Of a stretch of DNA of 64,000 nucleotides, positions 3,885-60,312 are shown piece after piece. The notes below the pieces were generated by a model. That model saw only the letters and a list, made by a program, of their open reading frames with translations, was not told the DNA's origin and did not search any database. The stretch spans positions 1 through 64,000 of the IMG/VR virus record IMGVR_UViG_3300046010_015054. One strand, 5' to 3'. The stretch is from a virus. Numbering within the stretch: position 1 is the first letter of the stretch; each line of letters opens with the position of its first letter. Made by a program: the position numbers and the translations under genes.

Positions 3885-3885
3885 G

Positions 3886-3960
3886 TAGTCAGGACAGGAC
3901 TTGAACCTGTATCTGCCCCCGAATTTACGCGAGCGGTAGTTACCATTACACCACCTGACT
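3886..3960 (-). tRNA. tRNA-like gene, anticodon arm not interpretable
   Basis: 75 nt with a perfect acceptor AGTCAGG/CCTGACT and T-arm ACAGG-TTCAAGT-CCTGT, and D-loop AATGGTAA. The anticodon region CGCTCGCGTAAATTCGGGGGC gives no regular 5-bp stem with 7-nt loop; the best is CTCG/CGGG with the 8-nt loop CGTAAATT. Acceptor, T-stem and 3' flank match those of 4356-4444, so the two are related copies. Confidence 0.5.
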
Positions 3961-40255: not shown

Positions 40256-41350
40256 CTATTCTTTTATAAATCTAGTATTTAATTCTAAAATATTTTGAGG
40301 AGATACTTTATTTGTAAATTCTTCTACTACTCCGTTTCTTATATTTTTATTAAATACTATATATTCTCCTTCTAAATCTAATTCATCATAACACCACGTA
40401 AAAGGATTAAGTGAAATGTTTTTATGATAAATTTCTTTCCCTTCTAAATTAATAACCTTACATTCAATCTCCAAGCTATCTTCTTCATTCCAGTAAAATA
40501 AACCTATTTTATTAGTAAGTTCTTTTTTATCATTTTTATGTAAAAGAATTTTACAAACTTTAGGTATATTTTTCCATTTATCTACCCACCCTCCAGGATT
40601 ATTAATAAGATCAAATTTAGAATTAGGATATTGATCTCTAACACTTCCTGGGTGGTTTATACCTTTAAATGGGTATTTTTGTTTTTGGTAATAAAATATT
40701 GTTGGGATAATATATTCAATCCATTTACCATAATAGTTAATTTTTTTACATAAATCCCAATAGTCTTTATCATTATTTACTAGATTAAAACCGGTAAATA
40801 AATCTGTAGAAAAGCCTACCATATGAACATCCATTAATCTATGATGAGGTTTGGCCCAATCTCCTTCTTGACGTTCACCATATAAAAGAAAATGTTCAAA
40901 TGTTTCTAGGTCATTTTTTAAAGATTCTAAATCATTTAGATCAAATTCGGTATCAGCTTCAATTCTAAAAATACGTTTATAACCTAAATTTTCAGCTGCT
41001 GTGCTAGCAAATATAAAACTATTGTAAATATTAGCAGTATGATCTTGAACACCTACTAAGGGTAACCAATTTTCATGGGTACCCATAGATGTTTTTACAT
41101 AAACATAAGGACGTTCATATAATTCTTTATCTAAAAGTTCTTGAGGGGGATGCCCTATCATAAATCCTCCTGTATGATTCCAGTAATGTTTTACTTTAGA
41201 ATCTAACCCCCATGAAAATGAAAATTTATTAAATAAAGCAATTTCATATGGTAAAATTGAATTAAGTTGATCTATTAAATTAGAACATACTTTTGCTCTT
41301 TCTGGGGTAGATAAATAACCATCTACAACTATTAATAGATCTGAGGTCAT
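40256..41350 (-). CDS. Glycosyltransferase-like protein with C-terminal extension
   Basis: 364 residues. YKRIFRIEADTEFDLNDLES (about residues 133-152) resembles a GT-A DxD region (EADTE). Residues 270-364 (KIGLFYWNEEDSLEIECKVI and on) look like a separate small beta domain, similar in position to the tail of the next gene. Overlaps its neighbour by 4 bases. Confidence 0.62.
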   Translation of the reverse strand: MTSDLLIVVDGYLSTPERAKVCSNLIDQLNSILPYEIALFNKFSFSWGLDSKVKHYWNHTGGFMIGHPPQELLDKELYERPYVYVKTSMGTHENWLPLVGVQDHTANIYNSFIFASTAAENLGYKRIFRIEADTEFDLNDLESLKNDLETFEHFLLYGERQEGDWAKPHHRLMDVHMVGFSTDLFTGFNLVNNDKDYWDLCKKINYYGKWIEYIIPTIFYYQKQKYPFKGINHPGSVRDQYPNSKFDLINNPGGWVDKWKNIPKVCKILLHKNDKKELTNKIGLFYWNEEDSLEIECKVINLEGKEIYHKNISLNPFTWCYDELDLEGEYIVFNKNIRNGVVEEFTNKVSPQNILELNTRFIKE

Positions 41351-43803
41351 ACTTTTATGATATTTGTGTAAATAATCTTATTAGTATATTCTTCTACTAT
41401 TCTAGTTTCATAATAACCTGAGTTTAGAAATAAATCACTTAAGAAAAAACTCCAATATTTAAAAATTTCTTGATAATTTAAAGTATAAAGAATCTGATCA
41501 TTGTTTAATATTTCAAATCTAACAACAGGTTGGAGATTTTTATCTCCTAAAAACGAATTTTTAGTCCACCAAAAAGAATTATTTTTGTATTCAATTAAAA
41601 AATCATCTTGAGATAATATCGTTTTAAAATAATTTTCTTTTAATTGGTTTTGAAATTCAGGATTTTTAAACCCATGAAATGCAATTAAATCATTTTCATG
41701 TTGAGGTAAGACTAATTCATCAGATACTGGATGTTTGCCATATTTGTAGTTATGGAATATTTCCATATCAACGTATGGGATTTCTTCAATATCTACTAAT
41801 GGGAGGCATTTTCTGTAATTATATCTATTAATTAATAAATTAGCAGAATCTTCATCATGTAAAGCAAATATACCTGGTTTAGTATTTTTGTAAGTATTAA
41901 ATAAATTAATTTGTTCTTCAAAAAACCATTTACAAGTTTTATCAAAAACAATTACATTAGTTTTTCTTCTAGGATAAACATGAACTGGGTCACCTGTAAC
42001 ATCTGCTAAAATATTTAAAGGGCTAGACCATTCTTCTCCTTCAATTAAATTCATAACAACAATCCTATCGTGAGTATGTGAATTTATTAAAGGAAATCCT
42101 TCTAAATGCTTAAAGTATTTAACTATAGAATCAGCATTTACTGTCAAAGAAATATCTGTATCAACGTACACAAATTTACTTTCGGGAAGATATTCAACTA
42201 CATCTGTTAAAATAGAAGGCTTTAAGGATAATACATTATCATATTTACCTCTAGCATTTAATTCACCTAATTCAACATCTAATCTTCTTACTATAAATTG
42301 ATCACTTAGTTTAAAAGCTAAATCTGAGGTATAGTTTATAGTATAAAGAATACATTTTCTATTAGAAAATTGTTCTATTGAATTAATTAAAACCTGAAGT
42401 AAAGATTCATAATTTTTAGTAAAATGGGTTACCCAATAAAAATCTTCTAAATAAACTTTTTTATATTCTGAAATTATAGAATTTCCTCTAAAGGATAATT
42501 TTGTATAAGGTTTATTATAGAAATGGTGAAGCATAATTTCCTTATCTTTACAATAAGTTTTACCCCCAACCCAAGTAGCTCCATAAATTACTTTACCTGA
42601 TTCTTCTTCTAGATTTTGACTATAAGTAATTACTTTAACTTTTTTATTTTGAGTAGCCCAATCATTCAAATCCTTTTCTCCTATACCATAAATTTCTTTA
42701 GTATCAAAAATATTATAATATCTTTCAGTCTGGAATTGGTTTAGTATTTCAGGATCATTTTTAAAAATTAATAAAGGACCTCCTAATCTATTATGAAAAT
42801 TTTCTCCTCCAGTACTTATAAAATCATATTCTCCTAAATAAGGATTTACCCAATTGTACAGATCACCCATTAAAGTGTCTATATCAAAAATACCAAAATA
42901 GTCATACTTTGAATAATCAATTATGTCGCTAAACATATTTACAAAGTATGAAAACTTTAAATCAGTAATTTTTTTATTACCTCCTAAAAGTTGTAATTCT
43001 CTATTATTAGCACGACTAAATCTTTGTTTTAATTCTTCTATATTTAAAGGAATAATATTATAATTAGAAGGTAAATTAGAAATATCTACTTCTTGATCTG
43101 TAAAAAAGTAAATATCAAAAATTTCATTTTGCTTTGTAATAGTTTCTTTATGAAACTGATAATAATCTGGTAAAGGTCCTAACCAAACTTCAATTAATAA
43201 TACTTTGGGTTGAGAGTTATATTTTAAAATAACATCTCTTTTAGCATTAAATTCTATAAATGAATATCCTACACTTTTAGCTTTATTAATAGTATCTATT
43301 CTAGTTTGGTCTGGGGTTAATTCATTAGCTTCAAAAATAATAGTTTCAGGGTATACATTATGTCCTCCTTCTAGGATATTATTAACAATAATAGTATCGT
43401 GCCCTTCAGCATCTATTTTTAAAGTTTTAACACTTTCTATATTATACCTTTCTACTAAATCTTTCCAAGTAAGAACTTCTACTTCATCTATTTTTAAAAG
43501 ATGTTCTAAACTTCGTTCTTTTAACTCTCTAAGAGTAACAGGATGAGGTTCACCAATAGAATTACAACCTTTTAAATACCAAGAAAGATTATTAGATTCT
43601 ATGTCTTCAGGTTCAACATAATAAACCTGAGTAATTCCTGAATAGTTACTAATGGCATGGTTTAATTTAGTAACTTTTTCTTTATTTGGTAGGCGATTAA
43701 GGTATAAATTAACAGCATCTATAGATAATCCTATTTCATCAGTTGAGGATTGGATAAGAGTTTCAAAATCAGAAGTACCTATTTCTATAAAATCGTAATT
43801 CAT
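41347..43803 (-). CDS. Three-domain FkbM methyltransferase/DUF6625/glycosyltransferase fusion
   Basis: 818 residues. Residues 1-180: FkbM-type SAM methyltransferase (FIEIGTSDFETL, KTLKIDAEGHD with the family's DxEG). Residues about 203-440: DUF6625-like GT-A domain (VLLIEVWLGPLPDYYQFHKE, YFGIFDIDTLMGDLYNWV, GGPLLIFKN). Residues about 450-818: a second GT-A-like domain (WVTHFTKNYESLLQVL, KFVYVDTDISLTVNADSI). It could methylate and extend the same glycan. Fusion read directly from one open frame without stop. Confidence 0.78.
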   Translation of the reverse strand: MNYDFIEIGTSDFETLIQSSTDEIGLSIDAVNLYLNRLPNKEKVTKLNHAISNYSGITQVYYVEPEDIESNNLSWYLKGCNSIGEPHPVTLRELKERSLEHLLKIDEVEVLTWKDLVERYNIESVKTLKIDAEGHDTIIVNNILEGGHNVYPETIIFEANELTPDQTRIDTINKAKSVGYSFIEFNAKRDVILKYNSQPKVLLIEVWLGPLPDYYQFHKETITKQNEIFDIYFFTDQEVDISNLPSNYNIIPLNIEELKQRFSRANNRELQLLGGNKKITDLKFSYFVNMFSDIIDYSKYDYFGIFDIDTLMGDLYNWVNPYLGEYDFISTGGENFHNRLGGPLLIFKNDPEILNQFQTERYYNIFDTKEIYGIGEKDLNDWATQNKKVKVITYSQNLEEESGKVIYGATWVGGKTYCKDKEIMLHHFYNKPYTKLSFRGNSIISEYKKVYLEDFYWVTHFTKNYESLLQVLINSIEQFSNRKCILYTINYTSDLAFKLSDQFIVRRLDVELGELNARGKYDNVLSLKPSILTDVVEYLPESKFVYVDTDISLTVNADSIVKYFKHLEGFPLINSHTHDRIVVMNLIEGEEWSSPLNILADVTGDPVHVYPRRKTNVIVFDKTCKWFFEEQINLFNTYKNTKPGIFALHDEDSANLLINRYNYRKCLPLVDIEEIPYVDMEIFHNYKYGKHPVSDELVLPQHENDLIAFHGFKNPEFQNQLKENYFKTILSQDDFLIEYKNNSFWWTKNSFLGDKNLQPVVRFEILNNDQILYTLNYQEIFKYWSFFLSDLFLNSGYYETRIVEEYTNKIIYTNIIKV

Positions 43804-44381
43804 TATTTTATTTTTTTAGCGGGAATCCCCACATAAACCCCAGATTCTTCTATAGGTTTTACTACGCATGAATTCATACCAATGGTAGATGAGCTATGGA
43901 TTGAAAGTTTTTCTTTAATAGACGAGTTAGTACCCATATAAACCATATCAAATATGGTAACATTACCTGATACTATGGCTCCAGGCATAGCACTAAAATA
44001 AGAACCTATTTTACAATCATGACCAATTTGATTACCTCGATTCAAAATAGAATGTCTACCTAATTCAATATTTGTAGTTAATATGCTATTTACTCCTATA
44101 AAACTACCTACTCCTACTTTGATATTACTATCTAATATTTGAACTGTTGGATGAACAAAAGTAAAATATTGAGTTTCTTTAGGTAAACGTTGAACTATAT
44201 CAAAACGATCTTTTGGGTCAGCTACGGCAACCATCATAGCATATTCTTGAGGATTAAACTCAGAAATAGGCTTAGCTACATCATTAGCATACTGATCATC
44301 TACAAAAAATGTAACTTCATCTTCAATCTGACATGCTACTTCTCTTGCATGTCCTCCATAACCGAATAGTGCTAATTTCAT
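43803..44381 (-). CDS. NeuD/PglD-like sugar O- or N-acyltransferase
   Basis: 192 residues. LALFGYGGHAREVACQIEDE is the N-terminal Rossmann start of NeuD-type enzymes; VHPTVQILDSNIKVGVGSFIG begins a left-handed hexapeptide beta-helix; NRGNQIGHDCKIGSYF holds the catalytic His; ends GVYVGIPAKKIK. Acetyl or similar transfer to a sugar nucleotide, usually after an aminotransferase step, fits the neighbouring DegT genes. Confidence 0.9.
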   Translation of the reverse strand: MKLALFGYGGHAREVACQIEDEVTFFVDDQYANDVAKPISEFNPQEYAMMVAVADPKDRFDIVQRLPKETQYFTFVHPTVQILDSNIKVGVGSFIGVNSILTTNIELGRHSILNRGNQIGHDCKIGSYFSAMPGAIVSGNVTIFDMVYMGTNSSIKEKLSIHSSSTIGMNSCVVKPIEESGVYVGIPAKKIK

Positions 44382-45037
44382 TGTTGATAAATTGGGAATT
44401 TAGATAGATCTGGGTATGGTAGAGTTAAATCTTCGTTTTGTTTTTTACTACCATCTAAATTATAAAATTGATTCATAAGTAATAAACCACGAGCTGCTAA
44501 TTCAGGCATCATATAAAAATTCCACCCTAGCATATCAAGATTATCGTCATGATATGAACACTCACGTCTTCCTGAATATCTGGCTCTTTTGAACCAATGA
44601 TAAGCTGCTAAATTATCAGTTAAGATAGCTCCTCCTTTACTTAATTTAAAATGTTTATATGGGCCCGTAAAAGAAATACACATATGGGTTCCTTTTAAGT
44701 ACATATCTGCTGTAAATCTTAAAGCAGAATCATACACATTACTATTACCTAATTCATAGGCTCCAGTTAAAGTACCCTTTTTTGTATCTAAACATCCGTA
44801 ATTTTTAGTAAACTTAACTTTTAAACCAGCATGAATAATTTCACAAGGTACAGATGGGTAAGTTCGATTTGGGATAATAATATGATCACTAATAATACTT
44901 TTCTTTACATTTTTTTCATAATATAAAGCTAAAAATAAAGCATTAGACATGTTATCTAATGTAACGACATAAGGGGCCCCAGTATAATCACCTAGGGCTT
45001 TTTCAAACTCGTTTGTTATATCATAAACGTTTTTCAT
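44378..45037 (-). CDS. Short DegT/DnrJ aminotransferase-like protein
   Basis: 219 residues, about half of a usual DegT enzyme (about 370-400). VVTLDNMSNALFLALYYEKN corresponds to the PLP-phosphate region, SFTGPYKHFKLSKGGAILT to the Schiff-base Lys segment. The middle and C-terminal small domain are abbreviated. It may be a degenerate or specialised aminotransferase, or a dehydratase-like relative. Overlaps both neighbours. Confidence 0.68.
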   Translation of the reverse strand: MKNVYDITNEFEKALGDYTGAPYVVTLDNMSNALFLALYYEKNVKKSIISDHIIIPNRTYPSVPCEIIHAGLKVKFTKNYGCLDTKKGTLTGAYELGNSNVYDSALRFTADMYLKGTHMCISFTGPYKHFKLSKGGAILTDNLAAYHWFKRARYSGRRECSYHDDNLDMLGWNFYMMPELAARGLLLMNQFYNLDGSKKQNEDLTLPYPDLSKFPIYQQ

Positions 45038-45446
45038 ATTCCATCTTAATATAATTTCTATCTCTTACAAATCCACGCTCACCTGTTTCTTTAAAACCTA
45101 ATTTTAAATATAAATCTTTAGCAAAATTATCACTAAAAACCCATAAACTAGCATAAGTTTTATCTTTTAGATACTCTTGATAAGCAGCTTTAGCATATCC
45201 TTGTTTTCTATGTAAAGGATGGATATCACATCCAACTTCATCTCCATTAGTTCTTAAATAACCTACAGCTTCTAAGTGTTTATTAATTATAATATACCAA
45301 GGAGATGTTAAATTACTAAACCAGCTTTCACATTGTTCAAGATTAAAAATAGAATTATTCTCTAAATTTCTTCTAGTTGAATAATCATTTCTAACTTCTA
45401 AAAGAAATGGTAAATCTTCTTTAGTTAAAAGTCTTAATGTTACCAT
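45021..45446 (-). CDS. GNAT acetyltransferase
   Basis: 141 residues. MVTLRLLTKEDLPFLLEVRN, then PWYIIINKHLEAVGYLR, GCDIHPLHRKQGYAKAAYQEY (acetyl-CoA loop R-x-x-G-x-A) and LYLKLGFKETGERGFVR. Likely acetylates an amino sugar made by the aminotransferases beside it. Confidence 0.86.
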   Translation of the reverse strand: MVTLRLLTKEDLPFLLEVRNDYSTRRNLENNSIFNLEQCESWFSNLTSPWYIIINKHLEAVGYLRTNGDEVGCDIHPLHRKQGYAKAAYQEYLKDKTYASLWVFSDNFAKDLYLKLGFKETGERGFVRDRNYIKMEYEKRL

Positions 45447-46633
45447 CCTTTTTTAATACAATCAGCAATGTATTCTCTTTCTTCAGGAGTAACCCACCAA
45501 CCAACTGGGATTGAAACTATTTTTCCAATTGTTTTATCCAATGTAGGGAGTGAAGTTCTAAATTCTTTAACGGCTGTATGCTTATCATTTCTTTCATGTA
45601 CTTGAGATACAGCAATTTTACATTCATCCATCCAACGATAGAAACCATCTCTATTGTCAACTAACATTGAGTAAATCCAAAAAGAACTTTCATGACCAAA
45701 ATGACGATCTAAAAGAGTTACACCCTTAACATCATTAAGATTTGAATCATAAAAAAAAGCATTTTCTTTATGTTTATTTACTATTGAGTTGATGTGTTTT
45801 AGATTTTCTATACCAATAGTCGCATTAACATCATTCATGTGGAATTTATAACCCCACTCTTCAATATTGGCTTCACAACGGAAATCTTTACGATCACCAT
45901 CTCTGTCAATTCCATACCAACGAATTAATTTACCTCTATCATGTAGTTCTTTATGAGGTGAAAGAAGTAAACCACCGTCTACTGAAGTAAGGTGTTTAAT
46001 TGCTTGAAGAGAGAACATAGTTAGATTACCATGACTTCCAATTGGTTTGTTTTTATAGTAAGAACCAAATGAATGAGCTCCATCTTCAATTACAGCAGGT
46101 TTAAAACCATACATGTGATAGGCTTTATTCTGTATTTGTTTAATTTTATCTAAATCGTTAGGGTACCCACCCCAATGGACTAACATTATAGCTTTGGTTG
46201 TGGGGCTAATTTTACGAGCTAAGTCATCCAAATCCATATTAAGTGTAGTAGGGTCAATATCTACCCACTTAATTTTTAAACCATGAGCTAAAATAGGCCA
46301 ATTTGAAGCAGTACACGTCATAGCTGTAGCTAACACTTCATCTCCAGGTTGTAAGCCTGGCCAATTGGTTTCGTATCCTATAACTCCTTCAAAAACTTTA
46401 TTATAAGTAGCAGGTTTTTTTAATAAATGAAGTGCTAAATGTAAAGCAGAAGTTCCAGAATTTACGGTTTGAACATAATCATGATTAAAATAGGTTTTAA
46501 GTTGATTTTCAAACTTTTCAACTTGGGGACCTTGACCAATGTAGCCACTGTTAAGAACTTTTGTTACCTCTTCAGCAGCGGTATCCGCCATGAATACTTT
46601 AAATAATGGAATTTTATTTTTTGGACTAAACAT
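45440..46633 (-). CDS. DegT/DnrJ/EryC1 aminotransferase
   Basis: 397 residues, full length. QTVNSGTSALHLALHLL binds PLP phosphate, ATAMTCTASNWPILAHG, VIEDGAHSFGSYYKNKPIG (PLP Asp) and LTMFSLQAIKHLTSVDGGLLL with the Schiff-base Lys (AIKHL). Transfers an amino group to a keto-sugar nucleotide. The trailing EEREYIADCIKKGW is typical. Confidence 0.93.
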   Translation of the reverse strand: MFSPKNKIPLFKVFMADTAAEEVTKVLNSGYIGQGPQVEKFENQLKTYFNHDYVQTVNSGTSALHLALHLLKKPATYNKVFEGVIGYETNWPGLQPGDEVLATAMTCTASNWPILAHGLKIKWVDIDPTTLNMDLDDLARKISPTTKAIMLVHWGGYPNDLDKIKQIQNKAYHMYGFKPAVIEDGAHSFGSYYKNKPIGSHGNLTMFSLQAIKHLTSVDGGLLLSPHKELHDRGKLIRWYGIDRDGDRKDFRCEANIEEWGYKFHMNDVNATIGIENLKHINSIVNKHKENAFFYDSNLNDVKGVTLLDRHFGHESSFWIYSMLVDNRDGFYRWMDECKIAVSQVHERNDKHTAVKEFRTSLPTLDKTIGKIVSIPVGWWVTPEEREYIADCIKKGW

Positions 46634-46634
46634 A

Positions 46635-47075
46635 TTATTTATATTTTTCTATATAATCACTACAAACACCAAGTGTTTTTTCGTTAGGTTCTTTATTAAA
46701 TACTTCGGGCATAACTAAAATACCTCTTTCAAATAAATTTGTTGACCAAATATAACCCTTAGATGTTAAAACACCAAGGTCATTTTCATGCCAAAAATAA
46801 TTTACTTTATCACCATTTTGATCTAATTGATTTAATGTAGATAAAGCAGCCATATTTTTACAATGAATCCAAAGATTAGGATAGTTTTTATCTAAAAGAT
46901 CAAAAGGAAATTCATATTGTGGTTCATCATGCCCAAGCATAAATTTTCCGTTTTCAAGCCAAACATCAATTTCAACATCATATCCTGCTTTTAAAGCTTC
47001 AAAAATATATTCTGGGTGGTTTTCGCGTTCAGGGTTGGGGCCTGAAATGTTTCCGCGGTGTGATATTAATTTCAT
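46635..47075 (-). CDS. GDPD-like phosphodiesterase, short
   Basis: 146 residues. ISHRGNISGPNPERENHPEY (HRG and N-P-x-x-EN motifs), then GYDVEIDVWLENGKFMLGHD (E-x-D plus His), as in glycerophosphodiester phosphodiesterases but only half the family length. It may cleave glycerol-phosphate or sugar-phosphate diesters in glycan building. Confidence 0.8.
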   Translation of the reverse strand: MKLISHRGNISGPNPERENHPEYIFEALKAGYDVEIDVWLENGKFMLGHDEPQYEFPFDLLDKNYPNLWIHCKNMAALSTLNQLDQNGDKVNYFWHENDLGVLTSKGYIWSTNLFERGILVMPEVFNKEPNEKTLGVCSDYIEKYK

Positions 47076-47767
47076 TTTTTAATTATTATTGACATATTAT
47101 TTCCTAAAGGTTCTTTAATTTTTATAATAGGTAAAACACCAAATAATTTTTTTAGAAACTTAATTACTTTAGGTGTCATAAACTCAGGAAATATATCGTG
47201 AAGTACAATTATATATTCTTTATCTAATAAAGGATAAATTGCTTCTATATCTTTTATTAATTGATCAGGAAAATGTCCTCCATCAATAAAAATAAAGTCT
47301 AAAGGCTCTGTAATGTGCTTTTTAATACATTTTTCAGTATCATTAGGACTCCAACCTATTTCTAAAAAAACATTATCTTTTAAATCAAAATGTTCTATTA
47401 AGTAATTAGCAGATTTATAACCATCTGCATCATAAAACAATGAAGGATTTTGATTTTCATAAGTCCAAAAAGAATTTACTTCTTCTTCAATATAGGCATC
47501 CATTGAAACAAGTTTACCTCCTGTTTGTTTAAATCCTAATCCTAAAGCGGTTGTACTAATGCCAAACGCTGTAGCTATTTCAAAACCATTTTTACAATTA
47601 TATTCTACTATAGTATTTTTTAAAAATTCAAATTCAGTAGGTCTAATTGAATAAGGAAAATCATGACCAACCATTTTTAAATTTTTACCTAAACCATATT
47701 CTCCAGGAGCTATTTCATACTGAACAGGTCCATCTTTTAGATTAAGTAGATTTTCAAAATAGTCCAT
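47072..47767 (-). CDS. SAM methyltransferase (Methyltransf_24 type)
   Basis: 231 residues. GFEIATAFGISTTALGLG is the SAM-binding glycine region, KLVSMDAY its acidic ribose site, DFIFIDGGHFPDQLIKDIEA motif IV with a metal-type DGGH, and YIIVLHDIFPEF. Small-molecule or sugar O-methyltransferase. Confidence 0.85.
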   Translation of the reverse strand: MDYFENLLNLKDGPVQYEIAPGEYGLGKNLKMVGHDFPYSIRPTEFEFLKNTIVEYNCKNGFEIATAFGISTTALGLGFKQTGGKLVSMDAYIEEEVNSFWTYENQNPSLFYDADGYKSANYLIEHFDLKDNVFLEIGWSPNDTEKCIKKHITEPLDFIFIDGGHFPDQLIKDIEAIYPLLDKEYIIVLHDIFPEFMTPKVIKFLKKLFGVLPIIKIKEPLGNNMSIIIKK

Positions 47768-47769
47768 AA

Positions 47770-48420
47770 TTATTTTATTTTAGCAAATCCAATCCCCCAA
47801 TCATCTTGTTGCTCACAATATTGAGTAACTTCAAAAATATCTGGGTTTAGGTTTTTAATAATTCTACTAGGGCCTGGGTGATAATTTGTGTCATGGAAAC
47901 CTATTACCCCACCAGGTGCCATGAAATCAACATACCAAAGTTCATCAATAACTTGATTAATAGAATGCCAACCATCTACAAATAAAAAGTCAATTTGAGA
48001 TATTTTTAGAGCATCTAATTTAGCTTGAATTTTTTCATAATCTTCACTTTTAGATTGTAAAGTAAAAATATTTCGACCCATTCCCTGTAAGAATGTTTTA
48101 TCATCAATATCAATTCCTAAATAAATAGCTTTAGGATTTTTATGTTTTAAAAGTATAGAGGTTGAAGTTTGGTCGTAGGATTGGTTATAAGTAATTCTTG
48201 AAACACCAATTTCGACAATAACCTTAGTTTGGTCTTTTACTTTAGTAAATTCTTCGGTCAATGCTGCTTGGTTGCACATTGAAAATTCTTTGTTCCCTAC
48301 TAATTCAAAAGGGTTAGGGAATTGAGGTATAAAATCTTTATCGTTATCTTCTAAATTTTCTAGTCTAATATCATTTACAAGATATTTTTGTATATTATGT
48401 TTTCTAAAGTTGTTTTCCAT
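47770..48420 (-). CDS. SAM methyltransferase (Methyltransf_24 type)
   Basis: 216 residues. KVIVEIGVSRITYNQSYDQT, IYLGIDIDDKTF, IDFLFVDGWHSINQVIDELW and GGVIGFHDTNYHPGP match a cephalosporin-hydroxylase/methyltransferase-like Rossmann family. Sits directly after the RuBisCO-like gene in transcription order. Confidence 0.83.
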   Translation of the reverse strand: MENNFRKHNIQKYLVNDIRLENLEDNDKDFIPQFPNPFELVGNKEFSMCNQAALTEEFTKVKDQTKVIVEIGVSRITYNQSYDQTSTSILLKHKNPKAIYLGIDIDDKTFLQGMGRNIFTLQSKSEDYEKIQAKLDALKISQIDFLFVDGWHSINQVIDELWYVDFMAPGGVIGFHDTNYHPGPSRIIKNLNPDIFEVTQYCEQQDDWGIGFAKIK

Positions 48421-48430
48421 TTTATTATTA

Positions 48431-49666
48431 TTAAAAAATTCTATATGCTAAATCTTCAGAAAACTCTTCTTTACCCCATTTTTCAATAGCAGCTTTATAT
48501 TCAGGTTTATCTGTTTCGTGATTAATTGCTTGTTTCATAGCTAAACCACCTGCTAAAGTTCCCATAGGATGACCATGTAATGCTCCTCCTACATTAGCTA
48601 ACCAATCATTACTTTCTAACGACTGATTAATAAATTGAACTAGTCCTGGGTGCATACCGCAACTTAAAGCAGGGACAATATTGTAATGCCAAAGTACTTT
48701 TAAGGCATCTCTTAATTCTTCTTCGTCTTGATTCATGTAACCACCAATCATACCAGCGTGGATTGAATCAGCACCTGACCATCCTGCTATCTTACATATT
48801 ACAGGCCAGTAAATATGGAATGGTGCTCTTCTATCTGTAAAGAATTTATCACCACTCTTTTGGAAGTGAATCCATAAACAAGGATTTTGTTTTCTAATTG
48901 CTCTGTATATTCCTAATCCACTCCAAACGTTAATGTGAATGCCATTTCCACCATTATCTGCTACAAATTTAGCTCTTTCTAAGGCATATGGGCTATCCCC
49001 ATTTATACAAAAACAATAAATAACGTCAGGAGCATTTTCTTTAAGCCATGATGCAATCAAAGGTACTCTTACTTCAAGAGGACAATGTTCTGGGTTAGCT
49101 AATAATTCATCTTCTTTAATAAAATTAACTCCCCCATAAACCATTTCTTTTACTGCTTCTAGTAGTACTTCAGGACTCATCCCTACTTTAGGTTTAATAA
49201 TACCTCCTAAAAATGGTTTGTCATAAACCTTATTAAATTTTCTCCAACCATCAATTCCGTAGGCAGGTTTTAAAGCAAATTGTTCCTCTACTTTTTCTGG
49301 GAGTTGGATATCAAGTACTTGGCATTTTTGAATTTCTAAGATATCAACTTGACCACCTGCTATATGGCATAAAATTTGAGAAATACCATCTTCTTCAAGA
49401 TTAATATTAGCTAAAGGAAATGCTATTTTTACATTTCCTGCTTTAGTAGATTTAAGATATTCTTGATTAGCTAAAATAAAACAACTATGGTTTTCAAACA
49501 TTTCTTCTGTTTCCCATATACTTCTATTATTAGGATTACCTATACTTTGACCTATAGCTAAATTCCAAGCTGCTTCTCGAAGTGAAGTTTTTGCTTCTAA
49601 ATAATAAGTAACTATAAAGTATTTTTCTTTATTTATTTCTTCTTCTGTTCTAAAAATTTTAATCAT
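48431..49666 (-). CDS. RuBisCO-like protein (form IV), large-subunit fold
   Basis: 411 residues aligning across the RuBisCO large-subunit fold. Kept: Lys158/Lys160 in GGIIKPKVGMS (RuBisCO K175/K177), Lys184-Glu-Asp186-Glu187 in NFIKEDE (carbamylated K201, D203, E204), His267 (H294), His303 in SIHAGMIGG (H327), Ser335 (S379) and ANVGGALHGHPMG (G403/G404). Changed: R295 position is Phe268, loop 6 Lys334 is Tyr310. It therefore should enolise or cleave a sugar-like phosphate, not fix CO2. Operon with cupin and HAD-nucleotidyltransferase genes upstream. Length normal. Confidence 0.92.
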   Translation of the reverse strand: MIKIFRTEEEINKEKYFIVTYYLEAKTSLREAAWNLAIGQSIGNPNNRSIWETEEMFENHSCFILANQEYLKSTKAGNVKIAFPLANINLEEDGISQILCHIAGGQVDILEIQKCQVLDIQLPEKVEEQFALKPAYGIDGWRKFNKVYDKPFLGGIIKPKVGMSPEVLLEAVKEMVYGGVNFIKEDELLANPEHCPLEVRVPLIASWLKENAPDVIYCFCINGDSPYALERAKFVADNGGNGIHINVWSGLGIYRAIRKQNPCLWIHFQKSGDKFFTDRRAPFHIYWPVICKIAGWSGADSIHAGMIGGYMNQDEEELRDALKVLWHYNIVPALSCGMHPGLVQFINQSLESNDWLANVGGALHGHPMGTLAGGLAMKQAINHETDKPEYKAAIEKWGKEEFSEDLAYRIF

Positions 49667-49669
49667 AAC

Positions 49670-49990
49670 TTATACTATATACTTATCTCCTTTTACACTA
49701 GGGGTTTTTACAACTATTAGTTCACAATTAGTTAAAAATTCAGGAACTGCTACTTCACCCGGGTGTAGAATAAATATATCACCCTTTTTTAAGTAAGTCC
49801 CGCTTAACTTCATCTTCCCACGAATAATATAATTTATTTCAGTAGCTACTTTGTGGTAGTGGTTATCCCAAATTTCTCCTTTTGGGTGAAACTTATAACT
49901 AACTTCAAATTCTTTTGTAGAATAAGCAGTTGGTTCGAAGTCACCTACAAACCAACCACCTACCATATTTTTACCTTTTAAAACGTCCAT
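49670..49990 (-). CDS. Cupin protein
   Basis: 106 residues with a single cupin barrel: WDNHYHKVATEINYIIRGKM supplies the His-x-His and Glu metal ligands, YLKKGDIFILHPGEVA the second motif. Lies 3 bases upstream of the RuBisCO-like gene and overlaps the fusion gene by one base. Possible sugar-phosphate isomerase, epimerase or dioxygenase for the same substrate. Confidence 0.87.
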   Translation of the reverse strand: MDVLKGKNMVGGWFVGDFEPTAYSTKEFEVSYKFHPKGEIWDNHYHKVATEINYIIRGKMKLSGTYLKKGDIFILHPGEVAVPEFLTNCELIVVKTPSVKGDKYIV

Positions 49991-51363
49991 TATTTAAAAT
50001 TTTCAAGATAATACGTTAACTCTTCAGGGGTACCTAATCCCCACATATCATCTTTATCAATCATAAAACATGAAATATGTTTATCATCTTGAATAGCTTC
50101 ATTATATACAGGACAAACATAAAATTCATTATTTACCCTAATATTTTTAGAAATCATTTGTTCAGCATATTTTACAAAGTCTGAACCTTGTTTCCAGTAA
50201 TACATTCCAACTGTTGCATTATCTGAGATTGGGTTTTTTTCTGCTACTTCGGTTACTCTATTATTTTCATCTACTTTAGCAAATGACCATTTAGGATGAG
50301 TGCCTTTAAAACATAAAATACCTCCATCAACACTAGTTTCATTCATTTTATAAAAGAATTCATTTGAATCCCAAATAATATGTTGATCTGAATTAGCAAA
50401 CAAAAGTGGAGAATCATTATCAATATATTCTTTAGCTAATAAAGCAGTACAAGCAGCACCTTCGGTTACACCATCTACTTCTATAATTTTACATCCTGGA
50501 GTAAGTAAATTGAGTAGAGTATCTAAGTTGTATTTTTCTCTATGTTCTTTTTGTACTGCATAGATAAAATTAGCTTTAATGTTAAGCATTTCAACTACAA
50601 CTTGAATCATAGGTTTACCTTTAACATCAATTAAAGGTTTAGGGAATGTATAACCCGCTTGAGCAAATCTAGAACCTGCTCCAGCCATTGGTATAATTAC
50701 ATTTAATTTATTATCTCTCCAAGCAGGTGATTTCATGACGTATCCTTTTTCTATTTCTGTTAATTTATTAAAAATATTTGTATAAGTAACTTCTTTTGGA
50801 TTTTTTACTCTTAAAATATGTGATTTACTTCTTGAAGCTGCTAATAATCCATAAGGTGAATCTTCTACAATAAGTGTTTCTTCTGGGAGGCAACTCATCA
50901 TAGAAATAGCCTTCCAATACATTTCAGGGTGTGGTTTGCTATTTTTAACGTCTTCGTTAGAAATAACTAAATCCATAAATTCCATTATCCCTAACTTAGA
51001 AAGTACAGTTAATACTGTTTTTCGAATGCTATTAGAACAAACTGCTAGTTTATAACCGCTTTCAGATAAAGATGACATCATTAATTGAAATTCTTCATTC
51101 GGTTTAAGGGCACGAAGTTCTTCTAAAGTATATTTTTGTTTATCTTCCCAAACTTTAGAATGTAATTCAACTGGTAAACCTTTTTCCTTAGTTAACATTT
51201 CAAGTTTTTGATTGGTTTTTAAACCATCATATTTACTTAAATGTTCTTTCCAACTAATAGAATATTCATTCCCTAAAGCTTTATTTAGGGCTTCATAATG
51301 AAGATTTTTAGCTTCAACTAATACTCCATCTAAATCAAAAATAATTAACTTTATCATTTCCAC
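49990..51363 (-). CDS. HAD phosphatase fused to sugar-nucleotidyltransferase
   Basis: 457 residues. Residues 3-210: HAD of the beta-phosphoglucomutase type, IIFDLDGVLVEAKN (Asp10, Asp12), CSNSIRKTVLTVLSKLG, SKPHPEMYW and VEDSPYGLLAA. Residues about 220-457: nucleotidyltransferase, NVIIPMAGAGSRFAQAGYTFPKPL with the G-x-G-x-R and PKPL motifs. One enzyme could dephosphorylate or isomerise and then activate the sugar that the RuBisCO-like protein makes or uses. Confidence 0.88.
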   Translation of the reverse strand: MEMIKLIIFDLDGVLVEAKNLHYEALNKALGNEYSISWKEHLSKYDGLKTNQKLEMLTKEKGLPVELHSKVWEDKQKYTLEELRALKPNEEFQLMMSSLSESGYKLAVCSNSIRKTVLTVLSKLGIMEFMDLVISNEDVKNSKPHPEMYWKAISMMSCLPEETLIVEDSPYGLLAASRSKSHILRVKNPKEVTYTNIFNKLTEIEKGYVMKSPAWRDNKLNVIIPMAGAGSRFAQAGYTFPKPLIDVKGKPMIQVVVEMLNIKANFIYAVQKEHREKYNLDTLLNLLTPGCKIIEVDGVTEGAACTALLAKEYIDNDSPLLFANSDQHIIWDSNEFFYKMNETSVDGGILCFKGTHPKWSFAKVDENNRVTEVAEKNPISDNATVGMYYWKQGSDFVKYAEQMISKNIRVNNEFYVCPVYNEAIQDDKHISCFMIDKDDMWGLGTPEELTYYLENFK

Positions 51364-51716
51364 TTATTTCTCATAACTAGCTGGGCAATGATTCCATAGT
51401 TTGAAATGTCAATAAAACTATCAATTGCGGCTTCTCCTGCTACGTAATTTTTACCATTACGCTTAAGAATATTCTTTAAGCGATTGATTTTATCATTACA
51501 GCGAAGCCAGATGCCTGTGATTGAAAGGTTTATATCATCTTGGTCTTCGAGTGTTGAGCCCAAAGCAATATTACCTAGACCGTAATCCATCATTTTAGCA
51601 GCGAACAATTCATATTGTTCCTCTTGAATTTGCTTAAATTCAGCTGCTAATTCAGGGTATGTTTTTTGAAAATCTGTAACTGCTTTTGAATTACCGTAAC
51701 CTGCTTGTTCTTCCAT
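51354..51716 (-). CDS. DUF1599-like protein
   Basis: 120 residues. MDYGLGNIALGSTLEDQDD then IWLRCNDKINRLKNILKRN and IDSFIDISNYGIIAQLV match the DUF1599/nucleotide-modification-associated pattern of phage proteins. The role in nucleotide handling is an annotation by analogy only. Overlaps the fusion gene by 10 bases. Confidence 0.7.
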   Translation of the reverse strand: MEEQAGYGNSKAVTDFQKTYPELAAEFKQIQEEQYELFAAKMMDYGLGNIALGSTLEDQDDINLSITGIWLRCNDKINRLKNILKRNGKNYVAGEAAIDSFIDISNYGIIAQLVMRNKWK

Positions 51717-51717
51717 T

Positions 51718-52395
51718 TTATTTATTGTTTATGTAAATTATAACTTCATTATAGTATTCTATAAAATGCTCATTCCACAAATCCCATTTTATATCTATCC
51801 CATCTACAGAATATACAGCATGATTTGGAAAAAGCCTAAGGAAAACATCCCTAAATACTCTAAATTGTTGTTTTAGTTCTGGGGTAGATAGATGCCATTC
51901 ACCTACTGCTACTCCTAGATTATCTTTTAACCAACAAAGATTTTCAAAATTAAAAATACTATATTCTCCTCCTTCACAATCTGTTTTAAGAAAATCTATC
52001 TTATTAATATTATTTTCTTTTAGTAAAGTTTTAAATGAAATACCCTCTAATGTTGAAGATTTTGTTGGATCAAAAATTTCAGTAGTAGCTAATTCACCAT
52101 CAGTAGGTGTTATAGCTTTTTTAATAATAGTAACAGGACCTCCTTGTGTATTTTTTTCTAAAGTAGGGTGTTCAATTACTGATGGTTCTATACAAAATAC
52201 TTTAGATGGATTTTTATGAAGTATAGAATAAGTAAAAGGACCAATGCTAGAACCAACATCTAATACAATATCACCTTCTTCAACTTCAAAAAACTTTTCG
52301 TATAAATTTTGTTCAAAAATTTCAAATGTAATAGCCTTTTGGTGAAAAGCATCTCCTTCAGCCATCCAACCCCAGTCAAAACCTTTTAAATCCAT
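51718..52395 (-). CDS. FkbM-type methyltransferase
   Basis: 225 residues. GDIVLDVGSSIGPFTYSILH, KVFCIEPSVIEHPTLEKNTQ, and KIDFLKTDCEGGEYSIFNFE are the three FkbM SAM motifs. Opens the sugar region in transcription order; follows gp62. Confidence 0.85.
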   Translation of the reverse strand: MDLKGFDWGWMAEGDAFHQKAITFEIFEQNLYEKFFEVEEGDIVLDVGSSIGPFTYSILHKNPSKVFCIEPSVIEHPTLEKNTQGGPVTIIKKAITPTDGELATTEIFDPTKSSTLEGISFKTLLKENNINKIDFLKTDCEGGEYSIFNFENLCWLKDNLGVAVGEWHLSTPELKQQFRVFRDVFLRLFPNHAVYSVDGIDIKWDLWNEHFIEYYNEVIIYINNK

Positions 52396-54147: not shown

Positions 54148-55803
<1,656 letters not shown>

Positions 55804-56094
55804 TTATTTATTAATTTTTGCTAAAATATCATTTTCTTTACCAATCCAGTATTCTTCACCTTGATATTCAAATTTGGTAAATCCTAATGCAGGTAATACA
55901 ACAATATCTCCTACTTCGAGGATAGTTTTAACAAATTTTCCATAACCTGATTCAAAACCAGGGCCAATAGAAATAACTTCTGCTGTTTTATTTCTTTCAC
56001 TACCCAAATCAGGTACAATAATATTACCATAAAGAGTTTCTTCCAATTCAATTGGTTTTACTATAATGGCATTAAATAGGGCTTCTAATTTCAT
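55804..56094 (-). CDS. groES: Co-chaperonin GroES
   Basis: 96 residues. FNAIIVKPIELEETLYGNII (mobile-loop region GNIIVPD), EVISIGPG, VGDIVVLPALG and YWIGKENDILAKI are GroES strands. Cap partner of the adjacent GroEL. Confidence 0.95.
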   Translation of the reverse strand: MKLEALFNAIIVKPIELEETLYGNIIVPDLGSERNKTAEVISIGPGFESGYGKFVKTILEVGDIVVLPALGFTKFEYQGEEYWIGKENDILAKINK

Positions 56095-57204: not shown

Positions 57205-58134
57205 TTATATATTAAAAAACATTGTAATGTAAGGGTTAAGATTTAAACTCCAACCCAAATCATGATAAAAACCTTCTAATTTACTTTCAAGAATAGACTC
57301 AAAAGATTTATTTTTATTTGCGTACTTATTTAAAAGATCTTTTATTTTATCAGGCATATCAAAATCAAGAAAAGCAAGTGCCTCTATTTTATAAGGATTA
57401 TCTTTTAAGTAAATCCATTTTACTTTATCACCTTGTACAATACGAGAATGTTGCTTATCTAAGCCCCAAAATGATAATAAATCATTATATTTAATAGCAG
57501 CTTTAACTGAAGCAGGTGCTCCTTGTTTAATAGCAGAGAACATTTCACCTTTTTTAGCTTTACGTTCAATGTATTTATCTAAAGTTTTAACTGAAGTAGG
57601 GTTACCTAAAATAGCAATATCTAAATCTTTAGAAAGAATATAATTTTTAAAATCTAAAAGTAATTTATCAATTTCTTTTTGATCAGATCCTTTTAGTACT
57701 TTTTCTAAGATTGAATTAAAGAATTTACCAAATATTGGAGGGAAATTAGCTTTCATAAACTCTAACCCTTTAATATCTAATTCTTCTTTAGTTACACCTT
57801 CTTTTTTAGTAATCCATTGAGCATATCTACGAGTAGCTCTAAAATAGGCCGAACGAATAACTGCTTCAGTTTTCATTTCAAATCGGTGTTCTTTAATATT
57901 GAATACTTCTTCAGCCATTTGTTGGTAGTACCCCGTAATTAAATCTTGGTATTTAAGGGCAATCTTTTCTAATGCTTCATCTCTTTCTGCTTCAGACATC
58001 TCATCAAAATTAGGATAAAGATGCTTTAATAAAGGCTCTGCATTATAATAGTTAGAATCCGTATCTACATAAGCACAGAAATTCACGTCATCTTCTTTAC
58101 AGATGAACCACGGAGTACCTTCTAAATGAATCAT
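57205..58134 (-). CDS. 43: DNA polymerase family B, C-terminal part (motif C half)
   Basis: 309 residues. AYVDTDSNYY (Asp24, Asp26) is polymerase motif C, followed by thumb/C-terminal helices as in T4 gp43: FEMKTEAVIRSAYFRATRRYAQ and GNPTSVKTLDKYIERK. The missing palm/finger half and exonuclease lie in 58597-60312. Two small genes sit between. Both halves are in order on one strand, each without internal stops, so they probably assemble into one enzyme. Confidence 0.93.
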   Translation of the reverse strand: MIHLEGTPWFICKEDDVNFCAYVDTDSNYYNAEPLLKHLYPNFDEMSEAERDEALEKIALKYQDLITGYYQQMAEEVFNIKEHRFEMKTEAVIRSAYFRATRRYAQWITKKEGVTKEELDIKGLEFMKANFPPIFGKFFNSILEKVLKGSDQKEIDKLLLDFKNYILSKDLDIAILGNPTSVKTLDKYIERKAKKGEMFSAIKQGAPASVKAAIKYNDLLSFWGLDKQHSRIVQGDKVKWIYLKDNPYKIEALAFLDFDMPDKIKDLLNKYANKNKSFESILESKLEGFYHDLGWSLNLNPYITMFFNI

Positions 58135-58355
58135 TCTATTACTTGAATTTCGCCTAAATTATCAGACGGAATATAATATTTAAAATCATACCCATCAAGC
58201 CATTCAGTAACAATTTTCTGCATAGCAGAAGACTTACCAGTGATAATTTTAGTATTTTTAAATTCTTGAGAATGCCAAAAGAAAAAATCAACTAATTCTT
58301 TCTCAACATCCTCATGTTTAACACCATGTAAATCTAGGGTTCTTTGTGTTTTCAT
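58131..58355 (-). CDS. Smr-domain-like protein between polymerase halves
   Basis: 74 residues. TLDLHGVKHEDVEKELVDFF then KIITGKSSAMQKIVTEWLDG correspond to the LDLHG and G-x-G motifs of Smr (small MutS-related) nuclease domains. ATGA overlap with both neighbours. Possibly a nicking nuclease, or a relic of whatever split the polymerase gene. Confidence 0.78.
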   Translation of the reverse strand: MKTQRTLDLHGVKHEDVEKELVDFFFWHSQEFKNTKIITGKSSAMQKIVTEWLDGYDFKYYIPSDNLGEIQVIE

Positions 58356-58600
58356 TCTTCATCAAATACTTCTAAAGGTTGTTCTTCTTCTCCTTTAGAA
58401 TTATAAATGGTTTCTAGAGCAAAAATAGTAAATTTTTTACCTTTAATTTTAAAAGTACCTCCTTGTTTTAACATTTTCTTTAATAAAGAGGTTTCTTTAT
58501 CTGACCAATTTAAAGTAAGATTAATTAATTGATCTTTATTTAATTGTTCTCCATCACAAAATATAGTGACTCCGTTTCGAATTGATTGTTTTGATATCAT
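58352..58600 (-). CDS. Unknown protein between polymerase halves, 82 aa
   Basis: MISKQSIRNGVTIFCDGEQL, then LKKMLKQGGTFKIKGKKFTI and an acidic tail ending EVFDEE. ATGA overlaps on both sides. No family recognised; not a homing-nuclease motif. Confidence 0.65.
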   Translation of the reverse strand: MISKQSIRNGVTIFCDGEQLNKDQLINLTLNWSDKETSLLKKMLKQGGTFKIKGKKFTIFALETIYNSKGEEEQPLEVFDEE

Positions 58601-60312
58601 AAGGCTATCTCTTCTCGCATTATTTTGTTCATATGTGTGTTAGCAAACAAGGCCGATTCTTGGATAATACGCTGACCGGACAATGTAATACTCTCACTTA
58701 GAATAACATTACCATAACGAAAACCCCCTAAAGCAGTAGCACCATACAATGAGTTCAACAAGATCTTCATTGTATGTTGTAGTAAGTGGTATTGAGCCCC
58801 TTTCTCTTTATCACCTGCTTTATAAGATTCCTTCATTTTATTTTTATACAAAACCCTTTCTTCAAACCATTTAGCAAGAATAGTTTTCAATACTGAATCG
58901 AAATCTGTTCTATACATAACACCATTAGCAGACACTGCAAATCCCATATCTTCAATTAGATTTATAAGTTTCCCAGCCTCTATCTTGGTTCGTTTTCTGG
59001 ATGAATTTTCCAGTGTAAGTTCGGTTTCCGGATTTAGTTTTTTCAAATCATTTAATCCGTAACGGCAGTTAAATATTTCCTTTCCTTCCACTATAACTTT
59101 CTCATTTGGTATAATTATACGCCCTACTAGCGTTTCTTTACCAATGTTTAAAGACATAATAATAGATGGGTATAGAGAAGTTAAATCTTCGTCAAACATA
59201 TACTTATATAACCCTGCTTGGGGGCAAAATAAGTAACCACCGGCGTAGTTCAACTTAGTAATTGGGTTTTTATCGCGGCTAGGCGGTATAGTACCTTGAG
59301 ACAATAGGTAAGCACTAATTGCGCCGTCGTGAATCATGCTGTTTTTATAGACGTCACTATAATTGATCTTACCTTTGTGGGCTAGGTTTTTTGTTAACGA
59401 AATATATTGAAATTTTTCGTCTAACGCTTTTAAGATCTCAACATCTCGAAAGTTATATTGAATAAAAGTTTGAATATCTTCTTCAAACAACCGATCTAAA
59501 CTACCTTCGTATTCAATTTTTTCTAAACCAACGTATTTTTTACCTAACGCATCTAATTTATACGAGGGTTCATCTTTAAAGCTATATTTTTTGTGTAGCT
59601 TCATGTAGTCAAGATTTTCAACTCCCGCCATTAGTAGGGGTTGGTCTTTATTCCACTCACTTTGGTCGTAAACAATGTTAACCGGAGAGATAGCACTAGC
59701 GATTTCTTGGTCGAATACATTAGAGATGCGGTAGTAGAGGTAGGGTATGTCGAAATAATCGCTATTATACCCTATGAGTATATCCGGATTAATTTCGCGC
59801 ATTCTTATTAAGAAAGTTTCTAAAAGCTTTTCTTCGCTTTCACAAGGAACAATTTCTTTATTTTTAGCTTTGGTGTGCTTTAATTGTCCTTTTTTATCTA
59901 AAATAAGAATTACCCATTGATCCTCTTGTTTGTACCACCATGCAATTGAAGTAACGGGTTTGGGAGCACTTTTGATATATTCTTCCGTAAGTGCTCCCCC
60001 CATTTCAATCTCAATATCAAAAAATACTTCTTTATGGGTTGTTGAAGGTTCATCATTAGTTCCATACTTTTCAACTAAAAACCTTTGGTAAGGTTTCATA
60101 TCGTTAAAATGAACTTTATTATCTTCTTTATCCCATTTGTAAGTTTTCCTAAGAGATTCTTTTTTTAAACCAACAAATTCTTCTTCTTGTTCGTCACATT
60201 CGATGTAGGCAGGGTAGTTCCACTCAAAATTAGTGTAACCCTTATCTTCCCATAAATGGATTTTATATTTGTTATTGCCTAATCTAGTAGCAAAACAAGA
60301 TTTGTAACTCAT
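58597..60312 (-). CDS. 43: DNA polymerase family B, N-terminal part (exonuclease, motifs A, B)
   Basis: 571 residues. Exonuclease motifs: FFDIEIE (Asp99, Glu101), GYNSDYFD (181-188), YNFRDVE (286-292). Polymerase motif A DLTSLYPS (376-383) and motif B KILLNSLYG (516-524). Ends HMNKIMREEIAL just before motif C would begin. T4-type replicative polymerase, proofreading intact; needs the 57205-58134 product for activity. Confidence 0.95.
   Translation of the reverse strand: MSYKSCFATRLGNNKYKIHLWEDKGYTNFEWNYPAYIECDEQEEEFVGLKKESLRKTYKWDKEDNKVHFNDMKPYQRFLVEKYGTNDEPSTTHKEVFFDIEIEMGGALTEEYIKSAPKPVTSIAWWYKQEDQWVILILDKKGQLKHTKAKNKEIVPCESEEKLLETFLIRMREINPDILIGYNSDYFDIPYLYYRISNVFDQEIASAISPVNIVYDQSEWNKDQPLLMAGVENLDYMKLHKKYSFKDEPSYKLDALGKKYVGLEKIEYEGSLDRLFEEDIQTFIQYNFRDVEILKALDEKFQYISLTKNLAHKGKINYSDVYKNSMIHDGAISAYLLSQGTIPPSRDKNPITKLNYAGGYLFCPQAGLYKYMFDEDLTSLYPSIIMSLNIGKETLVGRIIIPNEKVIVEGKEIFNCRYGLNDLKKLNPETELTLENSSRKRTKIEAGKLINLIEDMGFAVSANGVMYRTDFDSVLKTILAKWFEERVLYKNKMKESYKAGDKEKGAQYHLLQHTMKILLNSLYGATALGGFRYGNVILSESITLSGQRIIQESALFANTHMNKIMREEIAL

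Follow-up and report, generated by a model that had tools for sequence, protein, structure and literature searches.

We analysed a gene for a RuBisCO-like protein (RLP) in a stretch of viral DNA of 64,000 nucleotides, positions 1 to 64,000 of the IMG/VR record IMGVR_UViG_3300046010_015054. This whole stretch is referred to as the window, and all coordinates are those of the window. The full virus record comprises 170,105 bases, may be incomplete, and is T4-like; it encodes a Gp23 capsid protein, a T4-like polymerase and a clamp loader. The RLP gene lies within a nearly contiguous set of three genes:

48431..49666, minus strand: RLP, 411 amino acids (open reading frame list, Pfam, fold, alignment)
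49670..49990, minus strand: small cupin, 106 amino acids (homologue profiles; H44, H46 and E51 invariant)
49990..51363, minus strand: fusion of a HAD domain (residues ~3-206) and a nucleotidyltransferase (NTase) domain (residues ~219-457) (Pfam)

The genes follow each other in the order HAD-NTase, cupin, RLP; those for the fusion and the cupin overlap by 1 base, and a 3-base gap separates the cupin and RLP genes. These three reading frames, their spacing, the fusion gene and the glycan-related surroundings are as given in a preliminary description of the locus. For the HAD-NTase, the ATG at position 51357, which forms an ATGA overlap with the upstream stop codon, is a likelier start than the GTG at position 51363.

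The catalytic residues were assigned from an alignment of 80 RuBisCO and RLP proteins (RuBisCO numbering is given first). The metal/carbamate triad is kept, K201, D203 and E204 corresponding to K184, D186 and E187 of the RLP, as are K175 (K158), K177 (K160), H327 (H303) and S379 (S335). The residues replaced are E60 by G39, T65 by N44, N123 by G105, H294 by Q269, K334 by Y310 and, conservatively, R295 by K270. The preliminary description had placed the triad, K175/K177, H327, S379 and Tyr310 correctly. It was mistaken in reporting H294 as kept and R295 as Phe268, since H267 and F268 align with positions 292 and 293, respectively, and it had overlooked the changes at E60, T65 and N123. This signature is shared by the homologues: K175, K177, K201, D203 and E204 are present in 97/97, and the replacements E60G, T65N, N123G and H294Q are likewise found in 97/97, K334Y in all 95 homologues scored and R295K in 93/97. 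In RuBisCO, the residues that the RLP keeps serve metal binding and enolisation, whereas those that it has lost serve carboxylation and form part of the P1-phosphate and neighbouring-subunit site. From the alignment, the RLP is predicted to retain the parts required for enolisation, the carboxylation residues and part of P1-phosphate binding being gone. The conservative R295K, together with H327 and S379, suggests that a phosphate site is retained.

The RLP has a RuBisCO fold. It matches the Pfam families RuBisCO_large (E 1.2e-30) and RuBisCO_large_N (4e-6), and aligns to RuBisCO and RLP chains of the PDB across most of its length (best 1.1e-33). An AlphaFold2 model built with 46 homologues reached a pLDDT of 92 and a pTM of 0.90, and Foldseek placed a form III RuBisCO at the top (E 4e-31, TM 0.84), followed by other RuBisCOs and RLPs. 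Nevertheless, the protein misses every RuBisCO equivalog cut-off. A profile of its own family gives 356 bits even for a fragment and usually more than 470 for members, with all other homologues at about 240 or less. Lacking essential carboxylase residues within a RuBisCO fold, the RLP is of form IV and most probably not a carboxylase, an assignment already made in the preliminary description and now backed by both the active-site signature and the tree. Nonsynonymous divergence (dN) from close relatives is ~0.14 with saturated synonymous sites, which indicates that the RLP is under purifying selection.

In an IQ-TREE phylogeny of 80 proteins, the RLP family forms one clade (support 100/100), whose stem measures ~1.0 change per site. 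A separate clade (100/99) holds forms I-III, and another (100/100) the OiaX and kinase-linked RLPs. The sister group of the RLP clade is weakly supported (90/73). As the named IV-GOS, IV-Photo and IV-DeepYkr sequences lie outside the tree, the clade could coincide with a named one, above all IV-GOS. The Global Ocean Sampling (GOS) survey contained unplaced RuBisCO homologues (PMC1821046), and these and IV-GOS, compared here by description only, are likewise marine, non-RuBisCO, and reportedly poorly conserved at N123 (PMC1821046, PMC10173188).

In IMG/VR, relatives were confirmed in 240 stretches, and the viral counts given below use the 80 best of these loci, each with an identity of 51% or more. 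The clade is thus present in at least 80 viral contigs, and a T4-type prohead protease was detected in 6 of the 12 large carrier contigs tested. No RLP was found in 50,697 isolate phages, PHROGs gave no match, and BFVD contained no RuBisCO fold, only generic barrels with a TM below 0.4 of the query. In cells the RLP is rare: 16 loci were found among the 84,980 species genomes scanned, and separate counts gave 2 carriers among the 247 genomes of the order of one SAR11 member and 1 among the 241 genomes of the phylum of the Verrucomicrobiia member. The first-branching members are cellular (Elusimicrobia, Verrucomicrobiia, Nanoarchaeia/Pacearchaeota and some SAR11), and the RLPs of other SAR11, Patescibacteria and alphaproteobacteria lie within or beside the viral ones. 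This interspersion suggests that the gene has been exchanged between phages and their hosts.

The block is part of the phage genome. Across 21,233 bp around the RLP gene, a second contig of 48 kb shows 99.995% identity, and in a more distant phage (locus L007) the region is kept at 87-95%, beside the same phage replication genes. A bacterial chimera at this position, against which the preliminary description had cautioned, is ruled out by these two carriers, and assembly chimerism is therefore very unlikely. A recent foreign insert is also ruled out as the origin of the gene, as the G+C content of the RLP tracks that of its contig over 24-70% (r 0.94).

The most constant partner of the RLP is the NTase. 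Within five genes on the same strand, at 80 viral and 16 cellular RLP loci, a homologue of the NTase part of the fusion is found at 77/80 viral and 13/16 cellular loci, the latter including archaea, SAR11 and Elusimicrobia. The corresponding numbers are 76/80 and 3/16 for the cupin and 59/80 and 11/16 for a short protein resembling glycerophosphodiester phosphodiesterase (GDPD); the Methyltransf_24-type protein that adjoins the RLP (47770..48420) has homologues at 27/80 viral loci. When the 97 loci are reduced to 66 at ~90% RLP identity, the NTase is retained within six genes in 62, the cupin in 53 and the GDPD-like protein in 51. The cupin gene is the first upstream of the RLP gene in most viral loci, with a median spacing of -4 bp (68 loci). 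In SAR11, the RLP copies have GT17, GT61 or epimerase genes beside them.

The fusion protein matches HAD_2 (1e-32) and NTP_transferase (2e-9; 38.1 bits for a Pfam cut-off of 21.2). Its NTase part resembles sugar-1-phosphate NTases (PDB 4evw, E 6e-22) and, weakly, enzymes of the 6-deoxy-heptose pathway. The fusion is confirmed for this phage, but its HAD domain is no fixed partner, and the NTase stands alone in most RLP loci. The cupin of the window scores below the Pfam thresholds; among its 33 homologues, 18 match Cupin_7 and 11 match Cupin_2 (E <= 0.01), and H44, H46 and E51, a metal-type His/Glu motif, are invariant in all 33. The GDPD-like protein keeps the HRG, EN, ExD and GHD motifs and gives a profile match to 7e0v (E 8e-5); it has no Pfam match, and a weak fold search reached E 0.02 at best. 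This short GDPD-like family occurs in more than 590 IMG/VR stretches, with invariant motifs and no close solved fold, and is common in phage glycan loci both with and without an RLP.

The module without an RLP was located by scanning for the cupin alone, and the two arrangements were counted on non-redundant loci. The cupin-linked NTase is unfused in 70 of the 73 loci with an RLP, and fused in 25 of the 27 loci without one (Fisher p 4e-18, kinship ignored). These 25 fusions comprise 13 with a C-terminal HAD, 7 with an N-terminal HAD as in the window, and 5 with RpiB. In the Synechococcus phage Bellamy, the RpiB domain of the fusion is well defined (PF02502, 3.9e-32) and the next gene is a homologous cupin (47%). 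Bellamy and SynMITS9220M01 (both NTase-RpiB), and S-CAM9 and S-PRM1 (both HAD-NTase), resemble the present phage in having a homologous NTase and GDPD-like protein in Kyanoviridae glycan loci; the first two also have the cupin (47-48%). In contrast to the present phage, all four are without an RLP, and their NTase instead carries a fused RpiB or HAD domain. The reaction of RpiB, between ketose and aldose phosphates, proceeds by way of an enediol, and the first chemistry of RuBisCO is the same. From gene content, we read RLP, RpiB and HAD as possible alternative suppliers of the NTase substrate, this being a pattern and not a significant correlation. The NTase-RpiB fusion (L171:7829-8986 in Bellamy; also in L173) is annotated merely as "phosphatase" in isolate cyanophages, and represents a cultivable system in which the module could be tested.

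Based on these observations, the most likely role of the RLP is not carbon fixation but a part in producing an unusual activated sugar that is destined for a glycan. On balance, we favour the view that it is a Mg2+/carbamyl-lysine-dependent, non-carboxylating isomerase or epimerase of a sugar phosphate, feeding a nucleotide-sugar pathway. The Mg2+ would be held by carbamylated Lys184, Asp186 and Glu187, and Lys158 would act as the base: by removing the proton beside the carbonyl group of a ketose or aldose phosphate, it would give an enediolate. Without K334, N123 and E60, this enediolate would not be carboxylated but re-protonated elsewhere, resulting in isomerisation or epimerisation. Further modification of the product could come from the cupin, which may be another isomerase or epimerase, and in this phage also from the HAD domain. 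The NTase would then convert the product into a nucleotide sugar, which the aminotransferase, acetyltransferase, methyltransferases and glycosyltransferases of the surrounding island may use to decorate a surface glycan. More tentatively, these RLPs, carried mainly by phages, may be a RuBisCO branch that had not been described before and has become a dedicated sugar-phosphate isomerase or epimerase serving nucleotide-sugar synthesis, exchangeable in phage glycan loci with NTase-fused RpiB or HAD and making a sugar nucleotide not yet known; we regard this broader proposal as possible, though somewhat doubtful.

Several points weigh against the favoured isomerase or epimerase function. Three RLP loci, including that of the window, also have a fused NTase, and the NTase tree requires only ~4 changes in RLP and ~3 in fusion state, so that the exchange pattern is not significant when relatedness is allowed for. 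The cupin and the GDPD-like protein are also found without an RLP, and either may therefore act elsewhere. Enolase and decarboxylase activities, known from other RLPs, would be compatible with the residues of the present one. The preliminary description had proposed that a sugar phosphate is remodelled and then activated; the conserved neighbourhoods and the NTase fusions to RpiB or HAD argue for it, while the chemistry and substrate of the RLP, the order of the steps and the fate of the product in a glycan are parts that we infer.

An RLP acting after the NTase in the same glycan pathway, as an enolase, a dehydratase or an enzyme working on the nucleotide sugar itself, is unlikely but plausible. 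The order NTase-cupin-RLP in most loci would suit it, as would the retained enolisation parts: MtnW, the 2,3-diketo-5-methylthiopentyl-1-phosphate enolase, is an RLP of form IV that, like the phage protein, is without K334 and R295. However, the fusion of the NTase with RpiB or HAD where no RLP is present speaks for the level of the sugar phosphate, as does the phosphate site suggested above. MtnW also differs from the RLP in having Val at K177 (in the MtnW compared) and in its methionine salvage context. A decarboxylase or C-C cleaving enzyme similar to OiaX, which would shorten a sugar-acid phosphate of the branched or oxo kind ahead of nucleotidyl transfer, seems to us rather improbable. 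OiaX is an RLP decarboxylase by its NCBIfam name, shares the metal triad and the superfamily, and its model NF042437 does match the RLP, but at 114 bits, far below the cut-off of 700. The OiaX-type proteins, moreover, fall in their own clade and keep K334, R295 and H294 with S, N or A at K177, which is the reverse of the RLP family; their context is catabolic, and they usually adjoin a gene for a four-carbon acid sugar kinase, none of which was seen in the RLP loci. Scores against the MtnW models TIGR03332 and NF007095 are similarly low (92 and 125 bits, for cut-offs of 514 and 409). The comparison with MtnW and OiaX made in the preliminary description therefore holds as kinship within the superfamily, but not as membership of either family.

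The pairing of RLP and cupin has a precedent in R. rubrum and R. palustris, where the DeepYkr RLP (Rlp1) acts as a 1,3-isomerase and a cupin enzyme comes next (PMC5893883). Rlp1 (5-methylthioribulose-1-phosphate 1,3-isomerase) is, like the phage RLP, a non-carboxylating member of the RuBisCO superfamily with a cupin gene, and the phage pair could by analogy be a viral shunt from methylthioadenosine (MTA) to isoprenoids, with a methylthio-ribulose-1-phosphate isomerase and a methylsulfurylase. We consider this very improbable. DeepYkr occurs among MTA salvage genes in a pathway that needs MtnA, whereas the phage RLP occurs with the NTase and glycan genes, its constant partner being the NTase and not MtnP or MtnA; the two are set apart here on context, DeepYkr being outside the tree. 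A search of the 170-kb record, possibly incomplete, gave no match to the MtnA family (PF01008), with a positive control in 9 genomes and MtnP not searched. In addition, most cellular RLP loci lack a neighbouring cupin gene, and this holds for the basal branches of the clade too. A working RuBisCO that aids carbon fixation during infection is hardly credible, although "rbcL" or "RbcL-like" genes in viral contigs from landfills and the Great Salt Lake have been read in this way (PMC12607003, PMC8506154). The fold, the intact metal triad and K175/K177 agree with it, and form III RuBisCO of archaea/DPANN, the top structural match, is also nearest by profile score and shares the KPK motif. In contrast, form III keeps E60, T65, N123, H294, R295 and K334, the first four and the last of which are replaced in all RLP homologues scored; the RLP lies outside the form I/II/III clade and below every RuBisCO cut-off, and no Calvin-cycle neighbours were seen. 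Among 279 matches to narrow sequence patterns, no bona fide form I or III RuBisCO was confirmed in viral contigs.

Where the function of an RLP is known, it is that of an enolase, isomerase or decarboxylase in a salvage or catabolic route. The preliminary description had considered the activity new to phages; viral "rbcL" and "RbcL-like" genes had already been reported, but we found no report of an RLP-NTase-cupin module. In the open-access literature, to which the search was confined (subscription papers and preprints being outside it), no paper was found that connected RLPs with NTases, with cupin-NTase pairs or with glycan loci. If the favoured nucleotide-sugar function is true, the carbon-fixation reading of viral "rbcL" genes that belong to the RLP family would be corrected. 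NTase, cupin and RLP would also provide a concrete three-protein system in which to seek a new sugar nucleotide in the glycans of phages and SAR11.

The RLP module is enclosed by an island of glycan genes, including a DegT aminotransferase, a NeuD-like protein, methyltransferases and glycosyltransferases. The island is flanked by a clamp-loader/groEL/polymerase block on one side and an exonuclease-like gene on the other. The features concerned are as follows:

40256..52395, minus strand: glycan-biosynthesis island enclosing the RLP module (gene content)
43803..44381, minus strand: NeuD/PglD-type sugar acetyltransferase (profile matches)
45440..46633, minus strand: DegT/DnrJ/EryC1 (PseC-like) aminotransferase of the glycan operon (profile matches)
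46635..47075, minus strand: short GDPD-like protein, 146 amino acids (sequence motifs HRG, EN, ExD and GHD)
47072..47767, minus strand: second Methyltransf_24-type protein, same operon (Pfam)
47770..48420, minus strand: Methyltransf_24-type protein adjoining the RLP (Pfam)

A further DegT-family protein of 219 amino acids (44378-45037, minus strand) matches the N-terminal part of the aminotransferase model only, and is possibly a truncated or repurposed aminotransferase. Phage groEL and groES genes lie next to each other at a distance of a few kb from the RLP gene (54148-56094, minus strand). GroEL is also near the RLP in L007, L070 and L071, but not generally; as it was within the stored flanks of only 4 RLP loci, including that of this phage, it was dropped as a candidate partner. 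The T4-like DNA polymerase gp43 is split (57205-60312, minus strand) into pieces of 571 and 309 amino acids, which match positions 62-568 and 565-845, respectively, of the phrog_262 profile. Two small open reading frames lie between the pieces, of which that at 58131-58355 is Smr-like by eye. The window also contains 14 tRNA genes, among them a tRNA-like gene (3885-3960, minus strand) with a predicted four-base anticodon (aaat).

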